The notes beneath the pieces were generated by a model that worked only from the letters and a program-made list of their open reading frames with translations, did not search any database and was not told the DNA's origin. Below, in pieces: positions 1,832 to 39,004 of a stretch of DNA of 64,000 nt. The position numbers and the translations under genes are program-made. The stretch lies in assembly GCF_017798165.1 (NCBI RefSeq), contig NZ_CP059068.1, positions 4,650,001 to 4,714,000 on the forward strand. The letters are read 5' to 3'. How positions within the stretch are numbered: the first letter of the stretch is position 1; each line of letters opens with the position of its first letter. The stretch comes from Rhodoferax sp. AJA081-3. Its GTDB lineage: Bacteria > Pseudomonadota > Gammaproteobacteria > Burkholderiales > Burkholderiaceae_C.

Positions 1832-2845
1832 TCAAGCGCGGAGCCATTGCGCCAGCGGTGCAAAACCTTGCGGCATGTGACCCGCCAGCTTCGGGCCGTG
1901 GGCGTCAATCATGCGGCGGTTTTTCTCGGCCAAGCGGCCCTGGCCCAGCGAGGGTGCGCGCGACGCATCGACCGCGTAGTTCATGGCCTTGAAGATTGGT
2001 GTGAACTTGGTGTTGGCGGAATCCCGCGCATAGGGGCGCGTGGCGATTGAAAGTTGCGCAATGCGCAGCGGGTCGTTGGCACGGCTGAAGCGTGCAAAGC
2101 CCTGGTAGGTGAAGCGCTCGTCCACTTGGCGGTCGCTGTGCGCCACCATGGCGGCCATGATCTCGTGCAGCAACTCGCTCTGGTTCACCGTCTGGAGCAG
2201 CACGGTGAACTGCAGGTCGTTGAACTCGGGCAAGTCCCCCTCGACCTGGCGTGCCAGTGGCAAGGTGCCCAGCTTCAAGTCGACCAAGGTCACCCCCTGG
2301 GGGCGGGGCATTAAGTCCTGCATAACAATCTGCCGCTGCCCAAAGCGCACGTGCTCCAGGAAATGCGCAATGCGTACGGTGCGTGTCGCTTGGGCATGGT
2401 GGTCGGGCGCGGCCACCAAGTCGGAGTTGCGCGCCATGAGCGGCAAATCGAGATGGCTGCTAAACGGGGTACTCACCTTGCCGCTGGCGCTGTCTGAGAT
2501 CGTTAGCAATTCGCGTACTTCATGTTCGCGGACCTTCTTGATGGCGAGAAACGCCGTTTGGATGATCTCCGACGTGGGGGTGTCGGCGTCGATGCGCCAC
2601 TTGCGTCCGTAAACCAGCTTCAGTGGTCGCACGGCAGGGGCTCGGTCATAGTTCTCACGACCGATCAGCCCGACTTGCAAATACATGCCGTGGTCGTCGG
2701 CATTGGCAAATACTGGCGTGTGGCTGTCAAAGTGCAGGTCCGCCACGATAGCCGAAATCGTCTGGGGCGTCTGGTGGTAGCGCAGGTAGTGCTGTGGAAT
2801 GCAGGACGTGCCGTTGGACAGTTCAACACTGGGGGCAAATGCCAT
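1832..2845 (-). CDS. Hypothetical protein
   Basis: 337 residues from the ATG at 2845, which has GGTGAAG upstream; an upstream ATG at 2920 would add 25 residues but lacks a ribosome site. I do not recognise the family. The protein is soluble, without signal peptide or membrane segment, and has a mixed composition typical of a folded protein, with several Arg/His-rich stretches in the C-terminal half. It runs in the same direction as the diguanylate cyclase gene 47 bp downstream, so the two may share a transcript. Confidence 0.6.
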   Translation of the reverse strand: MAFAPSVELSNGTSCIPQHYLRYHQTPQTISAIVADLHFDSHTPVFANADDHGMYLQVGLIGRENYDRAPAVRPLKLVYGRKWRIDADTPTSEIIQTAFLAIKKVREHEVRELLTISDSASGKVSTPFSSHLDLPLMARNSDLVAAPDHHAQATRTVRIAHFLEHVRFGQRQIVMQDLMPRPQGVTLVDLKLGTLPLARQVEGDLPEFNDLQFTVLLQTVNQSELLHEIMAAMVAHSDRQVDERFTYQGFARFSRANDPLRIAQLSIATRPYARDSANTKFTPIFKAMNYAVDASRAPSLGQGRLAEKNRRMIDAHGPKLAGHMPQGFAPLAQWLRA

Positions 2846-3244
2846 CGGCACTTCACCGGCTGCCAGTGTTGCTGATGGGGCTTCACGGTTGGGAGATGGG
2901 TGCAGGCAATGGATGGCCATGGTCGTGTGTTGCGGCTGGGTTGACGAATGGCGTGACTATGCCTCGCGATCCTGAAGTGCGGAACAGCCGCAAAAGGCAA
3001 TCCACTCTTTCGACTAGTGGAACAGTGTTGGGCCAGCCTCGCACCGAAGGAACCTGACAAGACGCCAAGACACTTTTACGAGACGCAGAGCCACTTGCGT
3101 TGGCACCGCAATTTCTACACTGAACTCCATGTTGCAACACACCACTGTCAACTTTTCCCGCGTCAGCTCACAAACACGTCCGCGTGATGCGAGCCTGACA
3201 TTTTTCCAACTCCAACCACCAACCTCCAATTAAAGGAATACAAC
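2846..3244. other. Intergenic region without recognised feature
   Basis: About 400 bases between divergent genes. It should hold the promoters of both the unknown protein on the minus strand and the YHS protein on the plus strand. I see no convincing -35/-10 pair, hairpin or conserved ORF. Short frames here look like chance openings. Confidence 0.5.
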
Positions 3245-3748
3245 ATGAAACCGAACAAACTTCGCGCCACACTGCTTGCAGTCGCCACAACCATTGCTTT
3301 GGGCGCTGCAATGGCACCGGTCACCAGCTTTGCCTATGATGAAAACTCGACTTCTGCCGTCAACGTCGACGCCAAGGGTGTTGGCCTCAAGGGACATGAC
3401 CCAGTGGCCTACTTCACTGTTGGCGCGCCGACCGCTGGCAAAGCCGAATACACATACAAACATGATGGCGTGACCTACCAGTTCGCTAGTGCAGCTAACC
3501 GTGATGCTTTCAAGTCAGCCCCCGCTAAGTATGCACCCCAGTTCGGCGGCTTCTGCGCAATGGGTGTGGCGCTGGAGAAGAAGCTTGACGGTGACCCGAC
3601 TGCCTGGACCATTGCCAACGACAAGTTGTATCTGAACGTCAACAAGGATGTGCAGAAGAAATACTTGGAAGATGTGAACGGCAACAATAAGAAGGCCGAA
3701 TCCAACTGGCCTCAACTGCGCCACAAGACTCCGAAGTCACTGAGCTGA
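3245..3748 (+). CDS. Exported YHS-domain protein
   Basis: 167 residues with a clear Sec signal peptide (basic MKPNKLR, hydrophobic core to about 25, cleavage after SFA at 30), so it is periplasmic. A YHS domain follows at about 45-105: HDPVAYF at 51-57 and GGFCAMGV at 101-108, with the single conserved Cys104. YHS domains are small beta modules linked to metal (copper, heme) handling; no specific ligand can be read here. Start ATG with AAAGGA 8 bases upstream. The gene is followed by a strong hairpin at 3753-3783 and then a DoxX gene. Confidence 0.85.
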   Translation: MKPNKLRATLLAVATTIALGAAMAPVTSFAYDENSTSAVNVDAKGVGLKGHDPVAYFTVGAPTAGKAEYTYKHDGVTYQFASAANRDAFKSAPAKYAPQFGGFCAMGVALEKKLDGDPTAWTIANDKLYLNVNKDVQKKYLEDVNGNNKKAESNWPQLRHKTPKSLS

Positions 3749-3752
3749 TCCG

Positions 3753-3783
3753 AGCGGAGCGGGATTACCTCTCCCGCTCCGCT
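3753..3783. terminator. Perfect 12-bp hairpin after the YHS gene
   Basis: AGCGGAGCGGGA at 3753-3764 and its exact complement at 3772-3783 enclose a 7-base loop. There is no run of T on either side, so it may be a transcript-stabilising or partial terminator structure and not a classic intrinsic terminator. Confidence 0.5.
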
Positions 3784-3855
3784 GCATTGCGCCTGAGCCA
3801 ATGTGCTTTGGTCGAGCACGAGCGAATTCCCCCCCAAAAAAATTGGACACCACCC

Positions 3856-4347
3856 ATGAATAGTTTCATAAAGCCAACTATCTCGGCGAATGCCGAACGA
3901 CCCCAATTTCTTGCCGCCCTGGGTGAACGAGTTAGTCGGTGGGTTAGCCACGACCTCTTGGCCCTGGGGGCGCGAGCGTCCATGGCCGGGGTATTCTTTC
4001 TTTCAGGACGCACCAAGGTCGAGGGTTGGCTTACCGTGAGCGAAACCGCCGTATCCTTGTTTGAGGACGAGTACAAACTTCCCTTGCTGGCGCCAGACCT
4101 GGCCGCACACCTGGCTACCTACGCCGAACACGCATTCCCAGTTCTTCTGGTGCTAGGACTAGGTACACGCTTGTCGGCGGCAGCGTTGCTGGTCATGACC
4201 CTGGTGATACAGCTATTCGTGTACCCTGCTGCCTGGCCTTCCCATCTGAGTTGGGCCACACTGCTGCTGTACTTGGTCGGTCGCGGCGGCGGTCGTTGGT
4301 CGGTCGACTATTTCTTGTCGGCCCGCTGGGCACCACCGCGCGGCTGA
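3856..4347 (+). CDS. DoxX family membrane protein
   Basis: 163 residues from the ATG at 3856; a frame extension to 3787 has no ribosome site and reads through the hairpin downstream region. Four hydrophobic segments, a GARASMAGVFFLSGRTK motif in the first helix region and a central LLVLGLGTRLSAAALLVM helix fit the DoxX family of small inner-membrane proteins. The family is linked to redox and thiosulfate metabolism, but members differ in role. The gene follows the YHS gene in the same direction, and an AraC regulator lies downstream. Confidence 0.8.
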   Translation: MNSFIKPTISANAERPQFLAALGERVSRWVSHDLLALGARASMAGVFFLSGRTKVEGWLTVSETAVSLFEDEYKLPLLAPDLAAHLATYAEHAFPVLLVLGLGTRLSAAALLVMTLVIQLFVYPAAWPSHLSWATLLLYLVGRGGGRWSVDYFLSARWAPPRG

Positions 4348-37147: not shown

Positions 37148-37186
37148 CTAGTTAGTGGGCCGGGTGAGTGGAATAGCGAGGTAAAG
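37148..37186 (+). repeat. Left half of a palindromic repeat, split by the IS110 element
   Basis: CTAGTTAGTGGGCCGGGTGA at 37148-37167, then GCGAGGTAAAG up to 37186, where the IS begins. The complementary half resumes after the element at 38425-38483 (core GAGGAGCCCG..GGGCGGGGGACACG and arm CGGCCCGCTAACTAG). Together they rebuild a third copy of the repeat seen intact at 60735-60827 and 60888-60984. Confidence 0.75.
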
Positions 37187-37201
37187 ACACCGTTGTGAAA
37201 G

Positions 37202-38184
37202 TCAAGCGCCCATCGGCTTCAAATGGTGAGGATTGAAGGGTTTGCCCGACTTCAGCACGCCGTAGGCAATTGCCAGCAACTTGTGCATGCATGCCTCCAC
37301 GATGACCTTGCCCGGTTTGTTCTGCGCCTTCAAGCGCTGCCAGAACGCCGCTATCAGCGGGTTGTACTTGCCCGCCACCATGGCTGGGTAATACAACGCA
37401 CTCTTGAGTGCCCTGTTTCCTTGGGGGTGTGTTCCCTTGTGTTTATTCAAGGATGTTCCAGACTGGCGGATCAGCGGCGCCAAGCTGGCATAGGCAATCA
37501 GGGCTTTGACACTCTTGAAGCGCTCAGGCCTGCCAATGTAGGCCAGCAACTTAGGAATTGTCTTGTCTCCCAGGCCGGGGATCGATTCCAGAAGACCCCG
37601 GCGCTGCTTCAGATCCGGGTCGTCGTCGATGGTCTTGCGGATCTGCTCTCGCACCGCCTGGATTGATTCTTCCAATCCAAGCATCACATCCCGGATGGAC
37701 TGCTGGACCGAGGCATGCGCCACATCCAGGCGGTTGCTCTCACCCTGGAGCATCTCCTGTAGCGTATCCAGGCGCAGCACCAGGGCTTGCAGGGTGCGTA
37801 CGCCTACAGACGGGCCTCCCACAACTCGGGAGCCGTCAGCCGGCAAAACCGGGCCAGGCACTTCGCATCCCCCTCGTCAGTCTTGTTTCGCACCCCATCG
37901 GCTTCAATGAAGCGTTTGACCAGGAGCGGGTTGACCACCGATACTGCCACACCGTGGTCAAACAGGAACAGCGCCAGTGCTTCGTGGTACGCGCCGGTGG
38001 CTTCCATGCATACCTGTACTGCCTCGCCTGGCGGGATATGGGTCTGTATCCATTGCAGCAGGTGTTGGAAGCCCGACACATCGTTGGCAAACACTTTGCT
38101 GCGGTATTTACCATCCACCCTGAGCAAGGCAGCATCAAGCTTGGCCTTGCTGACATCGATTCCTACGCTCCAGATCATTGCCAT
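37202..38184 (-). pseudogene. IS110-family transposase, frameshifted
   Basis: Read 38184 to 37202. The first frame gives the RuvC-like DEDD domain: SVGIDVSKAKLDAALL, CMEATGAYHEAL, and KTDEGDAKCLARF with two catalytic Asp. It stops after PELWEARL at about 37808. The second frame continues with SVGVRTLQALVLRLDTLQ and the Transposase_20 domain (IPGLGDKTIPKLLAYIGRPE, RQSGTSLN with the candidate catalytic Ser). Adding one C in the short C run near 37812-37816 would join them as LWEAPSVGVRT, giving about 327 residues, normal for the family. The enzyme carries out recombination guided by a bridge RNA. As sequenced it is inactive, unless the shift is a sequence error. Confidence 0.85.
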
Positions 38185-38224
38185 CTCCCTTCAGATGCAA
38201 GTCTCAGCGCCGTATCCGACATGC

Positions 38225-38385
38225 ACACCCTGATATGCGGGGTCACCGCTGGCCGCATACAAACAAAATGATCCGGCCAGCGGCGCCCCAAGACACCGTT
38301 CGAGCTTCTGCGTCGAATCCGGGCAGCGCCCCAGTCTTTACCTCGGGTTTGGCTTCCCAAGGAGGAGCACGGGGTCGTCCGCTCG
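38225..38385 (-). ncRNA. Candidate IS110 bridge RNA with all four guides
   Basis: Transcribed strand is minus, so it is read from 38385 down. Left target guide 38360-38368 (plus strand AGGAGGAGC, equal to the right flank from 38425). Right target guide 38336-38345 (CTTTACCTCG, exact complement of the left flank 37177-37186). Left donor guide 38291-38300 (AGACACCGTT, equal to the element's end 37185-37194). Right donor guide 38230-38236 (CTGATAT, complement of the other end, 38420-38426). A perfect 10-bp stem (38246-38255 with 38274-38283) separates the donor guides, and CCCC 38329-38332 can pair with GGGG 38371-38374 around the target guides. Order and layout match IS621. RNA ends are estimates. 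Confidence 0.75.
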
Positions 38386-38424
38386 GGCTCCCTTTAGCGC
38401 AACGAGAGCGGATTGAACAATATC

Positions 38425-38483
38425 AGGAGGAGCCCGAAGGGCGGGGGACACGAGCGGTTTCATTCACTCGGCCCGCTAACTAG
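38425..38483 (+). repeat. Right half of the palindromic repeat split by the IS110 element
   Basis: AGGAGGAGCCCGAAGGGCG, GGGGACACGAGCGG, then the arm ATTCACTCGGCCCGCTAACTAG, which is complementary to the left arm at 37148-37174 over its outer 15 bases (one wobble position). The arm overlaps the stop codon of lspA at 38480-38482, so the hairpin probably also ended the lspA transcript. Confidence 0.75.
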
Positions 38484-39004
38484 CTCTTCCTCACCCGCAG
38501 CAGCTCGTCCAGTATCAAACAGACTGCGCCAATGCTGATGGCGCTGTCAGCCACGTTGAATGCTGGAAAGTGCCCACCGTGAAATAACGGGGCCATCCAG
38601 CTCCAGTGGAAGTCCAGGAAGTCGATCACATAGCCGTGCACCATGCGGTCAATCACATTGCCGATGGCGCCGCCCAGAATACAAGCCATGGCAAAGCTGA
38701 ACAGCTTCTGGGTCGGGTGGGCCTTCAGCATCCAGATGATCACGCCTGCGGCCACTAGGCCCAGCGCCGTGAAGAACCAGCGTTGCCAGCCCGACTCGTT
38801 GGCCAGAAAGGAAAACGCAGCGCCGGGGTTGTGCGCGCGCACGATGTTAAAAAAGCTGGTGACATAGGTGCTGTCCCCCAACTGGTAATAGCCCACGATC
38901 AGCACCTTGGTGAACTGGTCCGCCAAGATGATGATGAAGGCCAGGCCCAGCCATTGCAGCAGACTGGCGCCGGTCGATTTGCTGCCGAAAGTGGAGCGTG
39001 CCAT
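38480..39004 (-). CDS. lspA: Lipoprotein signal peptidase
   Basis: 174 residues from the ATG at 39004; earlier in-frame residues fall within the end of ileS. Four membrane helices with the conserved signal peptidase II motifs: [10 protein letters not shown] (60-69), [10 protein letters not shown] with catalytic Asp119, and FNVADSAIS with catalytic Asp153. It removes signal peptides from diacylated prolipoproteins at the inner membrane. It follows ileS by 34 bp in the ribF-ileS-lspA order standard in proteobacteria. Its stop codon lies in the arm of the palindromic repeat. Confidence 0.97.

Follow-up and report, generated by a model that had tools for sequence, protein, structure and literature searches.

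A predicted bridge-RNA-guided IS110 element of IS621 type and its hairpin-repeat target in Rhodoferax sp. AJA081-3

The closest described system to the element analysed here is IS621 of E. coli, a member of the IS110 group whose recombinase carries the catalytic residues D11, E60, D102, D105 and S241 (PMC11208158, in the part drawn on here, as holds for each paper cited below). Excision of IS621 rebuilds a promoter over the joined ends, and the circle drives the bridge RNA (PMC11208160). Targeting of palindromic repeats (REP) has already been published for IS110 elements, IS621 among them (PMC11208160, PMC11187229), and ISPpu10 and ISPa11 also insert into abundant palindromic repeats (PMC11187229).

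Within a window of 64,000 nucleotides from Rhodoferax sp. AJA081-3 (the whole stretch analysed; contig NZ_CP059068.1, positions 4,650,001 to 4,714,000) we examined an element that resembles IS621 in its DEDD/Ser residues, long leader and CT core, in the order of its predicted guides (left target, right target, left donor, right donor) and in a promoter-like pair formed where the ends join (PMC11208160, PMC11208158), as well as in having a palindromic-repeat target (PMC11208160, PMC11187229). It differs from IS621 in its target sequence and in its host repeat, which belongs to another family and is also distinct from the repeats used by ISPpu10 and ISPa11; ISPa11 differs further in being of IS1111 type, with its RNA downstream of the gene (PMC11187229). 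The first-pass annotation had described the target as differing from that of IS621 and as the core of a palindromic repeat; the sequence was correct, but the published targeting of such repeats makes it less novel than first rated.

Element boundaries, copies and transposase

The element and its parts are as follows.

37185..38426, minus strand: IS110-group element with a CT core at each end, delimited by a near-identical second copy and uninterrupted corresponding sites
38425..38426, minus strand: left CT core, read directly (AG on the forward strand)
37185..37186, minus strand: right CT core, read directly (AG on the forward strand)
37804..38184, minus strand: N-terminal part of the transposase, a 126-aa ORF with the DEDD RuvC-like domain, ended early by a 1-nt difference
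37202..37861, minus strand: C-terminal part of the transposase, a 219-aa ORF with the PF02371 domain and catalytic serine
37812..37814: frameshift site, three Gs in the window copy and four in the intact copy
38185..38426, minus strand: left non-coding end with the predicted bridge RNA inside, 242 nt with the core

Searching the genome for the element revealed one further copy (G000:C1:82401-83643), which differs from the window copy by one base and has the same leader, ends and cores. Its transposase is intact (327 aa, L002:1743-2726), with Pfam domains PF01548 and PF02371, scores above the cut-off for NCBIfam NF033542 'IS110 family RNA-guided transposase' and is 45% identical to IS621, with the five IS621 catalytic residues aligned to invariant D10, E61, D103, D106 and S242. 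Its relatives by sequence in the PDB were IS621 and ISCro4, the latter giving the best match (9t56, 279 bits). In the window copy a 1-nt frameshift splits the transposase into the 126- and 219-aa ORFs, possibly through a homopolymer assembly error; the first-pass annotation had mentioned neither this frameshift nor the intact second copy.

Judged by its sequence, the element belongs to the IS110 group and is of IS621 type. The DEDD RuvC-like domain and the Tnp domain with its catalytic serine are present in the intact copy and split in the window copy, and the long left non-coding end contrasts with 15 nt from stop codon to core at the right. Long subterminal inverted repeats mark IS1111, and no inverted pairs of at least 12 nt linking both element ends were found. 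When the two flank pairs were compared with unoccupied repeats elsewhere in the genome and with the relatives' corresponding sites, insertion was seen at the dinucleotide core with no extra target duplication, and the uninterrupted sites in relatives indicate that both insertions duplicated CT alone. A search of plasmid DNA for the element gave no match, and a plasmid protein search for the transposase returned 31 records, none reaching 60% identity.

Given the split ORF, the window copy would probably be unable to make active recombinase, and we rate as an even call the view that it is a dead relic and that only the copy in mutL matters. The 1-nt difference speaks for this view, whereas the possible assembly error speaks against it, as does the identity of leader, ends and cores in both copies, which would allow the copy in mutL to supply recombinase in trans. 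A relic at this position would be compatible with the guide-RNA explanation developed below.

Predicted bridge RNA and its guides

Four guide segments, and a hairpin between the last two, can be read in the leader.

38360..38368, minus strand: left target guide (LTG), GCTCCTCCT, equal to the left flank (9/9)
38336..38345, minus strand: right target guide (RTG), CGAGGTAAAG, complementary to the right flank (10/10), functional part probably 38336-38343
38291..38300, minus strand: left donor guide (LDG), AACGGTGTCT, equal to the element's right end (10/10)
38230..38236, minus strand: right donor guide (RDG), ATATCAG, complementary to the element's left end (7/7)
38240..38289, minus strand: hairpin between LDG and RDG, from arm pairing, fold and compensatory changes

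Direct reading confirmed these segments at the positions and in the sense first proposed for them, each with its CT core, and likewise the claimed 5' order LTG, RTG, LDG, RDG on the transposase strand, so that at the level of sequence the bridge-RNA arrangement of the IS110 group, four ordered guides that all include the core, is present. Core-anchored ordered guide matches total 36 bases, while 1000 versions of the leader shuffled by dinucleotides scored 13.1 on average (sd 1.6) and 20 at most. The full 10/10 complementarity first described for the RTG also held, but probably just 7-8 nt of it act as the guide, because the first two bases at the 5' end of this 10-base segment lie within or beside the predicted stem of the target-loop hairpin (CCCG/UGGG) and the match runs unbroken for 8 bases in copy 2 and for 7 in three relatives. 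The contiguous RTG match of 7-10 bases here compares with 4 in IS621, although longer RTGs have been reported for IS621 orthologues (PMC11208160), and the RDG match is contiguous here and discontiguous in IS621.

The predicted leader RNA (38210-38398, minus strand) folded at -91.5 kcal/mol, whereas its shuffles averaged -73.9 (z -3.7) and 0 of 200 were as low; the whole leader gave a z of -3.5, with 1 of 200 as low. In the predicted folds a small hairpin separates the LTG from the RTG and a long one the LDG from the RDG; against a guide-loop reading, however, the RDG is placed within a small hairpin of its own and not open opposite the LDG. The stem previously described between the donor guides exists but is longer than the 10 bp given for it, with 19-nt arms (38240-38258 and 38271-38289) that are 84% complementary. 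A consensus fold, limited to 4 sequences, contained 55 pairs, of which 9 had both sides changed and 9 were broken in one sequence. The leader structure is thus conserved in part. Rfam searches of the window, the second locus, six repeat loci and part of one repeat locus gave no bridge-RNA match.

We then compared guides with flanks over five rows, comprising the window copy and copy 2, which share one leader, and three related elements with leader and flanks from an uncultured beta-proteobacterium (L034; 82% protein identity), Variovorax (L035; 70%) and a further genome (G122; 69%), giving four distinct leaders. The target of copy 2, in mutL, agrees with the left guide at 9/9 and with the right guide at 8/10 bases, and the summed guide scores of the five rows were 36, 34, 25, 32 and 30, each reached by 0 of 1000 shuffles. 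Guide positions also correspond, the RTG ending at leader position 91 in all five rows, the best contiguous LTG match at position 67 in four (G122 excepted) and the best LDG match at position 136 in four, the exception being L034 with 9/10 there.

The RTGs CGAGGTAAAG, CGTGGTCAAG, CGTAATAAAG and CGCAATTAAG stand opposite the flanks CTTTACC, CTTGACC, CTTTATT and CTTAATT, respectively. When these four distinct RTGs were swapped between elements, each fitted its own flank best (8, 7, 7 and 7 of 8; next best 7, 6, 6 and 6), with the eighth base mismatched in all three relatives. Own-flank scores for the LTG were 9, 8, 8 and 7 of 9 and did not discriminate between elements, because the left flank is CTCCTCCT in four of the five rows; G122 runs against the guide reading here, since its LTG scores 8/9 with the L034 flank but 7/9 with its own, and its contiguous match at the LTG position is only 3 bases. 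The right ends are all alike, so the LDG swap is unable to discriminate, while in G122 the RDG has altered along with the left end (8/8, compared with 5-6/8 in swaps). Covariation was therefore found for the RTG in four distinct elements and for the RDG in one, and the proposed comparison of other copies' guides with their own flanks came out in favour of copy 2 and the RTG but was uninformative for the LTG. Right flanks like those of the five rows (CTTTACCT, CTTGACCT or CTTGACTT) also occur at six partial loci (L036-L041), of which a single Roseateles genome contributed four.

These data bear on whether the matches could instead be remnants of old flanks and ends captured by the leader, with no guide RNA operating. 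The frameshifted window transposase and the failure of LTG matches to track flanks fit such a history, whereas the corresponding positions, the kept order, the RTG changes fitting the own flank in three further elements and the partly conserved leader structure do not, and a guide mechanism has been described in this recombinase family (PMC11208160); we give remnants scarcely any chance. The bridge-RNA reading of the first-pass annotation is supported by copy 2 at its matching site, the corresponding guide positions, the fold and the uninterrupted sites in relatives, and from the sequences compared we consider the element almost certainly an IS621-type IS110 insertion sequence with bridge-RNA guides.

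Two promoter-like boxes lie at opposite ends of the element.

37200..37205, minus strand: -35-like TTGACT at the right end, 17 nt from the -10-like box once circularised
38417..38422, minus strand: -10-like TATTGT at the left end

Joining the ends places TTGAC[T/A/G] 17 nt from TATTGT or TACGAT in all five rows, and this pair has 9-10 of 12 consensus bases compared with a best of 6-7 of 12 at the integrated junction. An excised circle would thus bring the -35/-10 pair together as a putative promoter at the end junction, from which the bridge RNA would be made, and the DEDD/Ser recombinase would exchange strands at CT as in IS621. We infer circle formation, RNA expression, recombinase binding and strand exchange at CT by analogy with that system.

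The hairpin repeat at the insertion sites

The window copy interrupts a hairpin repeat, which is the proposed target.

38427..38485, minus strand: left half of the interrupted hairpin repeat, from arm pairing and the uninterrupted relatives L059 and L062
37146..37184, minus strand: right half of the interrupted hairpin repeat, from arm pairing and the uninterrupted relatives

The joined flanks of both copies read GGGCTCCTCCTTTACC, and this 16-mer has 35 exact unoccupied sites in the 5.17-Mb genome, with 69 sites at up to 2 mismatches compared with 6 for the reversed pattern. Fold and arm tests were made on 30 of the 35 exact sites, and in all 30 the 16-mer forms the 3' side of the repeat apex. 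The centre of the repeat is conserved (TGTCCCC, an inner stem, then CTCCTCCTTTACC) while the arms vary by locus. Judged by eye, the long hairpin was in the minimum-energy structure of 28 of the 30 sites, and in the exceptions, L022 and L033, in-register pairing of the arms still covers 79% and 88% of the 24 positions. Arms from the same locus paired at a mean of 91% of 24 positions, compared with 63% for arms from different loci, and the best partner of the left arm was its own right arm in 27/30.

Among 103 genomes of the genus, 67 contained a longer form of the motif, and among 299 of the family, 127 (from 75 of 141 genera) contained a relaxed form; the own genome counts in both, and the reversed-motif control gave 0 among the matches listed. 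Relatives of the element, own included, were found in 1 of the 103 genus genomes (E <= 1e-60) and 2 of 399 family genomes (1e-100), an order-level search (1e-90) returning the same 2 of 399. As the motif occurs in many genomes and the element in one of the genus, the hairpin repeat is independent of the element.

Because both occupied sites lie within such a repeat, and unoccupied repeats fold into a long hairpin in 28 of the 30 cases, the recombinase might read the hairpin shape rather than the sequence, with the guide match secondary. This is very unlikely, as the insertion point is base-exact, the RTG follows the flank variants TTACC, TGACC, TTATT and TAATT, and IS621 is active on reprogrammed targets (PMC11208160). 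A supporting role of hairpin structure in sequence-guided targeting is possible.

The repeat may be the published Beta-proteobacterial repeat element (BRE), which, compared by description only, is alike in its tens of copies, ~90 bp length and high GC and occurs in Comamonadaceae including Rhodoferax, at times within coding sequences; we found no IS110 link in the part of PMC3110155 drawn on here. A literature search with the letters of the repeat returned only papers with unrelated titles. We rejected assignment to the enterobacterial-type REPs, as it is the apex that is conserved in this repeat, its stems differing between loci. Enterobacterial REPs have a conserved stem and are mobilised by the RAYT transposase, and RAYT was likewise rejected as a carrier of the present repeat, there being one Y1_Tnp gene and no exact CTCCTCCTTTACC in the surrounding 10-kb stretch.

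Several further features of the repeats were observed. Inverted pairs roughly 100-250 bp apart are frequent in the own and family genomes (e.g., G000:C1:4522895/4523035 and 2244311/2244448), the conserved apex CTCCTCCTT is similar to the anti-Shine-Dalgarno sequence, with AAGGAGGAG on the opposite strand, and an SAH riboswitch near repeat L019 was the sole Rfam match. In six relatives (L047-L052) the repeat lies on both sides of a similar ~2.2-kb gene block, with differing orientations. We rejected the idea that such pairs bound a mobile element, given the cobalamin-like genes between them, which by eye we take to be conserved cobalamin genes.

Uninterrupted sites, mutL and implications

Copy 2 splits mutL, separating the N-terminal domains from MutL_C (L002:805-1749 and 2730-4082; G000:C1:81705-84982), and the genome gave no other MutL_C match. 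Uninterrupted sites were sought at 29 non-own loci for each insertion, from 92 genomes with a mutL match and 88 with an lspA match, using a single fixed pattern within 300 bases. Beside lspA, the counterpart of the window site, an uninterrupted repeat was found in 2 of 29 relatives (L059 and L062), while at the corresponding place in mutL it was found in 15 of 29 relatives' loci, in one orientation in all 15 (L090, L091, L094-L096, L102, L104, L105 and L110-L116). The remaining 14 mutL loci gave no match to the fixed pattern, L106 among them offering just 49 bases.

Covariation was assessed in 14 of the 15 mutL repeats, the incomplete L111 being dropped, and both sides had changed in 10 of 26 helix pairs with 94% of cells paired; on this evidence pairing seems to be preserved despite translation of the stretch. 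At a further locus (L117, G026:C79:82400-84200) a mutL hairpin repeat lies elsewhere in the gene in an open frame and encodes AQVKEEPAQRAGDTE, and the interrupted mutL halves end with AQVK and begin with EEPAQRAGDTE, residues shared with that peptide. Palindromic elements of Rickettsia also occur in frame, and the G026 repeat resembles them. Another locus (L119, G004:C15:23000-29500) has a second, partial match to the mutL 3' end ~4.4 kb from the full one.

Since copy 2 interrupts the sole MutL_C match, the strain may be a natural mutator, with mismatch repair presumably lost through the insertion. Many Rhodoferax species have the repeat in the linker of mutL, which raises the further idea that an IS110 clade co-evolved with variants of a family-wide hairpin repeat and that the element acts, via mutL, as a reversible RNA-guided mutator switch, which we regard as unlikely. 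If it were true, insertion would halt mismatch repair and scarless excision would restore it.

A host repeat of this kind as IS110 target, right guides that track repeat variants and an insertion in mutL are, to our knowledge, new here, a limited literature search, mostly of sources other than subscription journals, having returned no report of any of the three. The locus offers a natural, sequence-only case in which a putative bridge RNA predicts the landing site, through a genome with two copies, relatives in which right guide and flank have both changed, and uninterrupted sites in sister species. It adds a beta-proteobacterial IS621-type recombinase with the natural target CTCCTC-CT-TTACC, and connects one clade of IS110 elements with a hairpin repeat, the motif of which was present in 75 of the 141 genera sampled from the family. 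Finally, the insertion in mutL may link RNA-guided transposition to mutation rate in a testable way.
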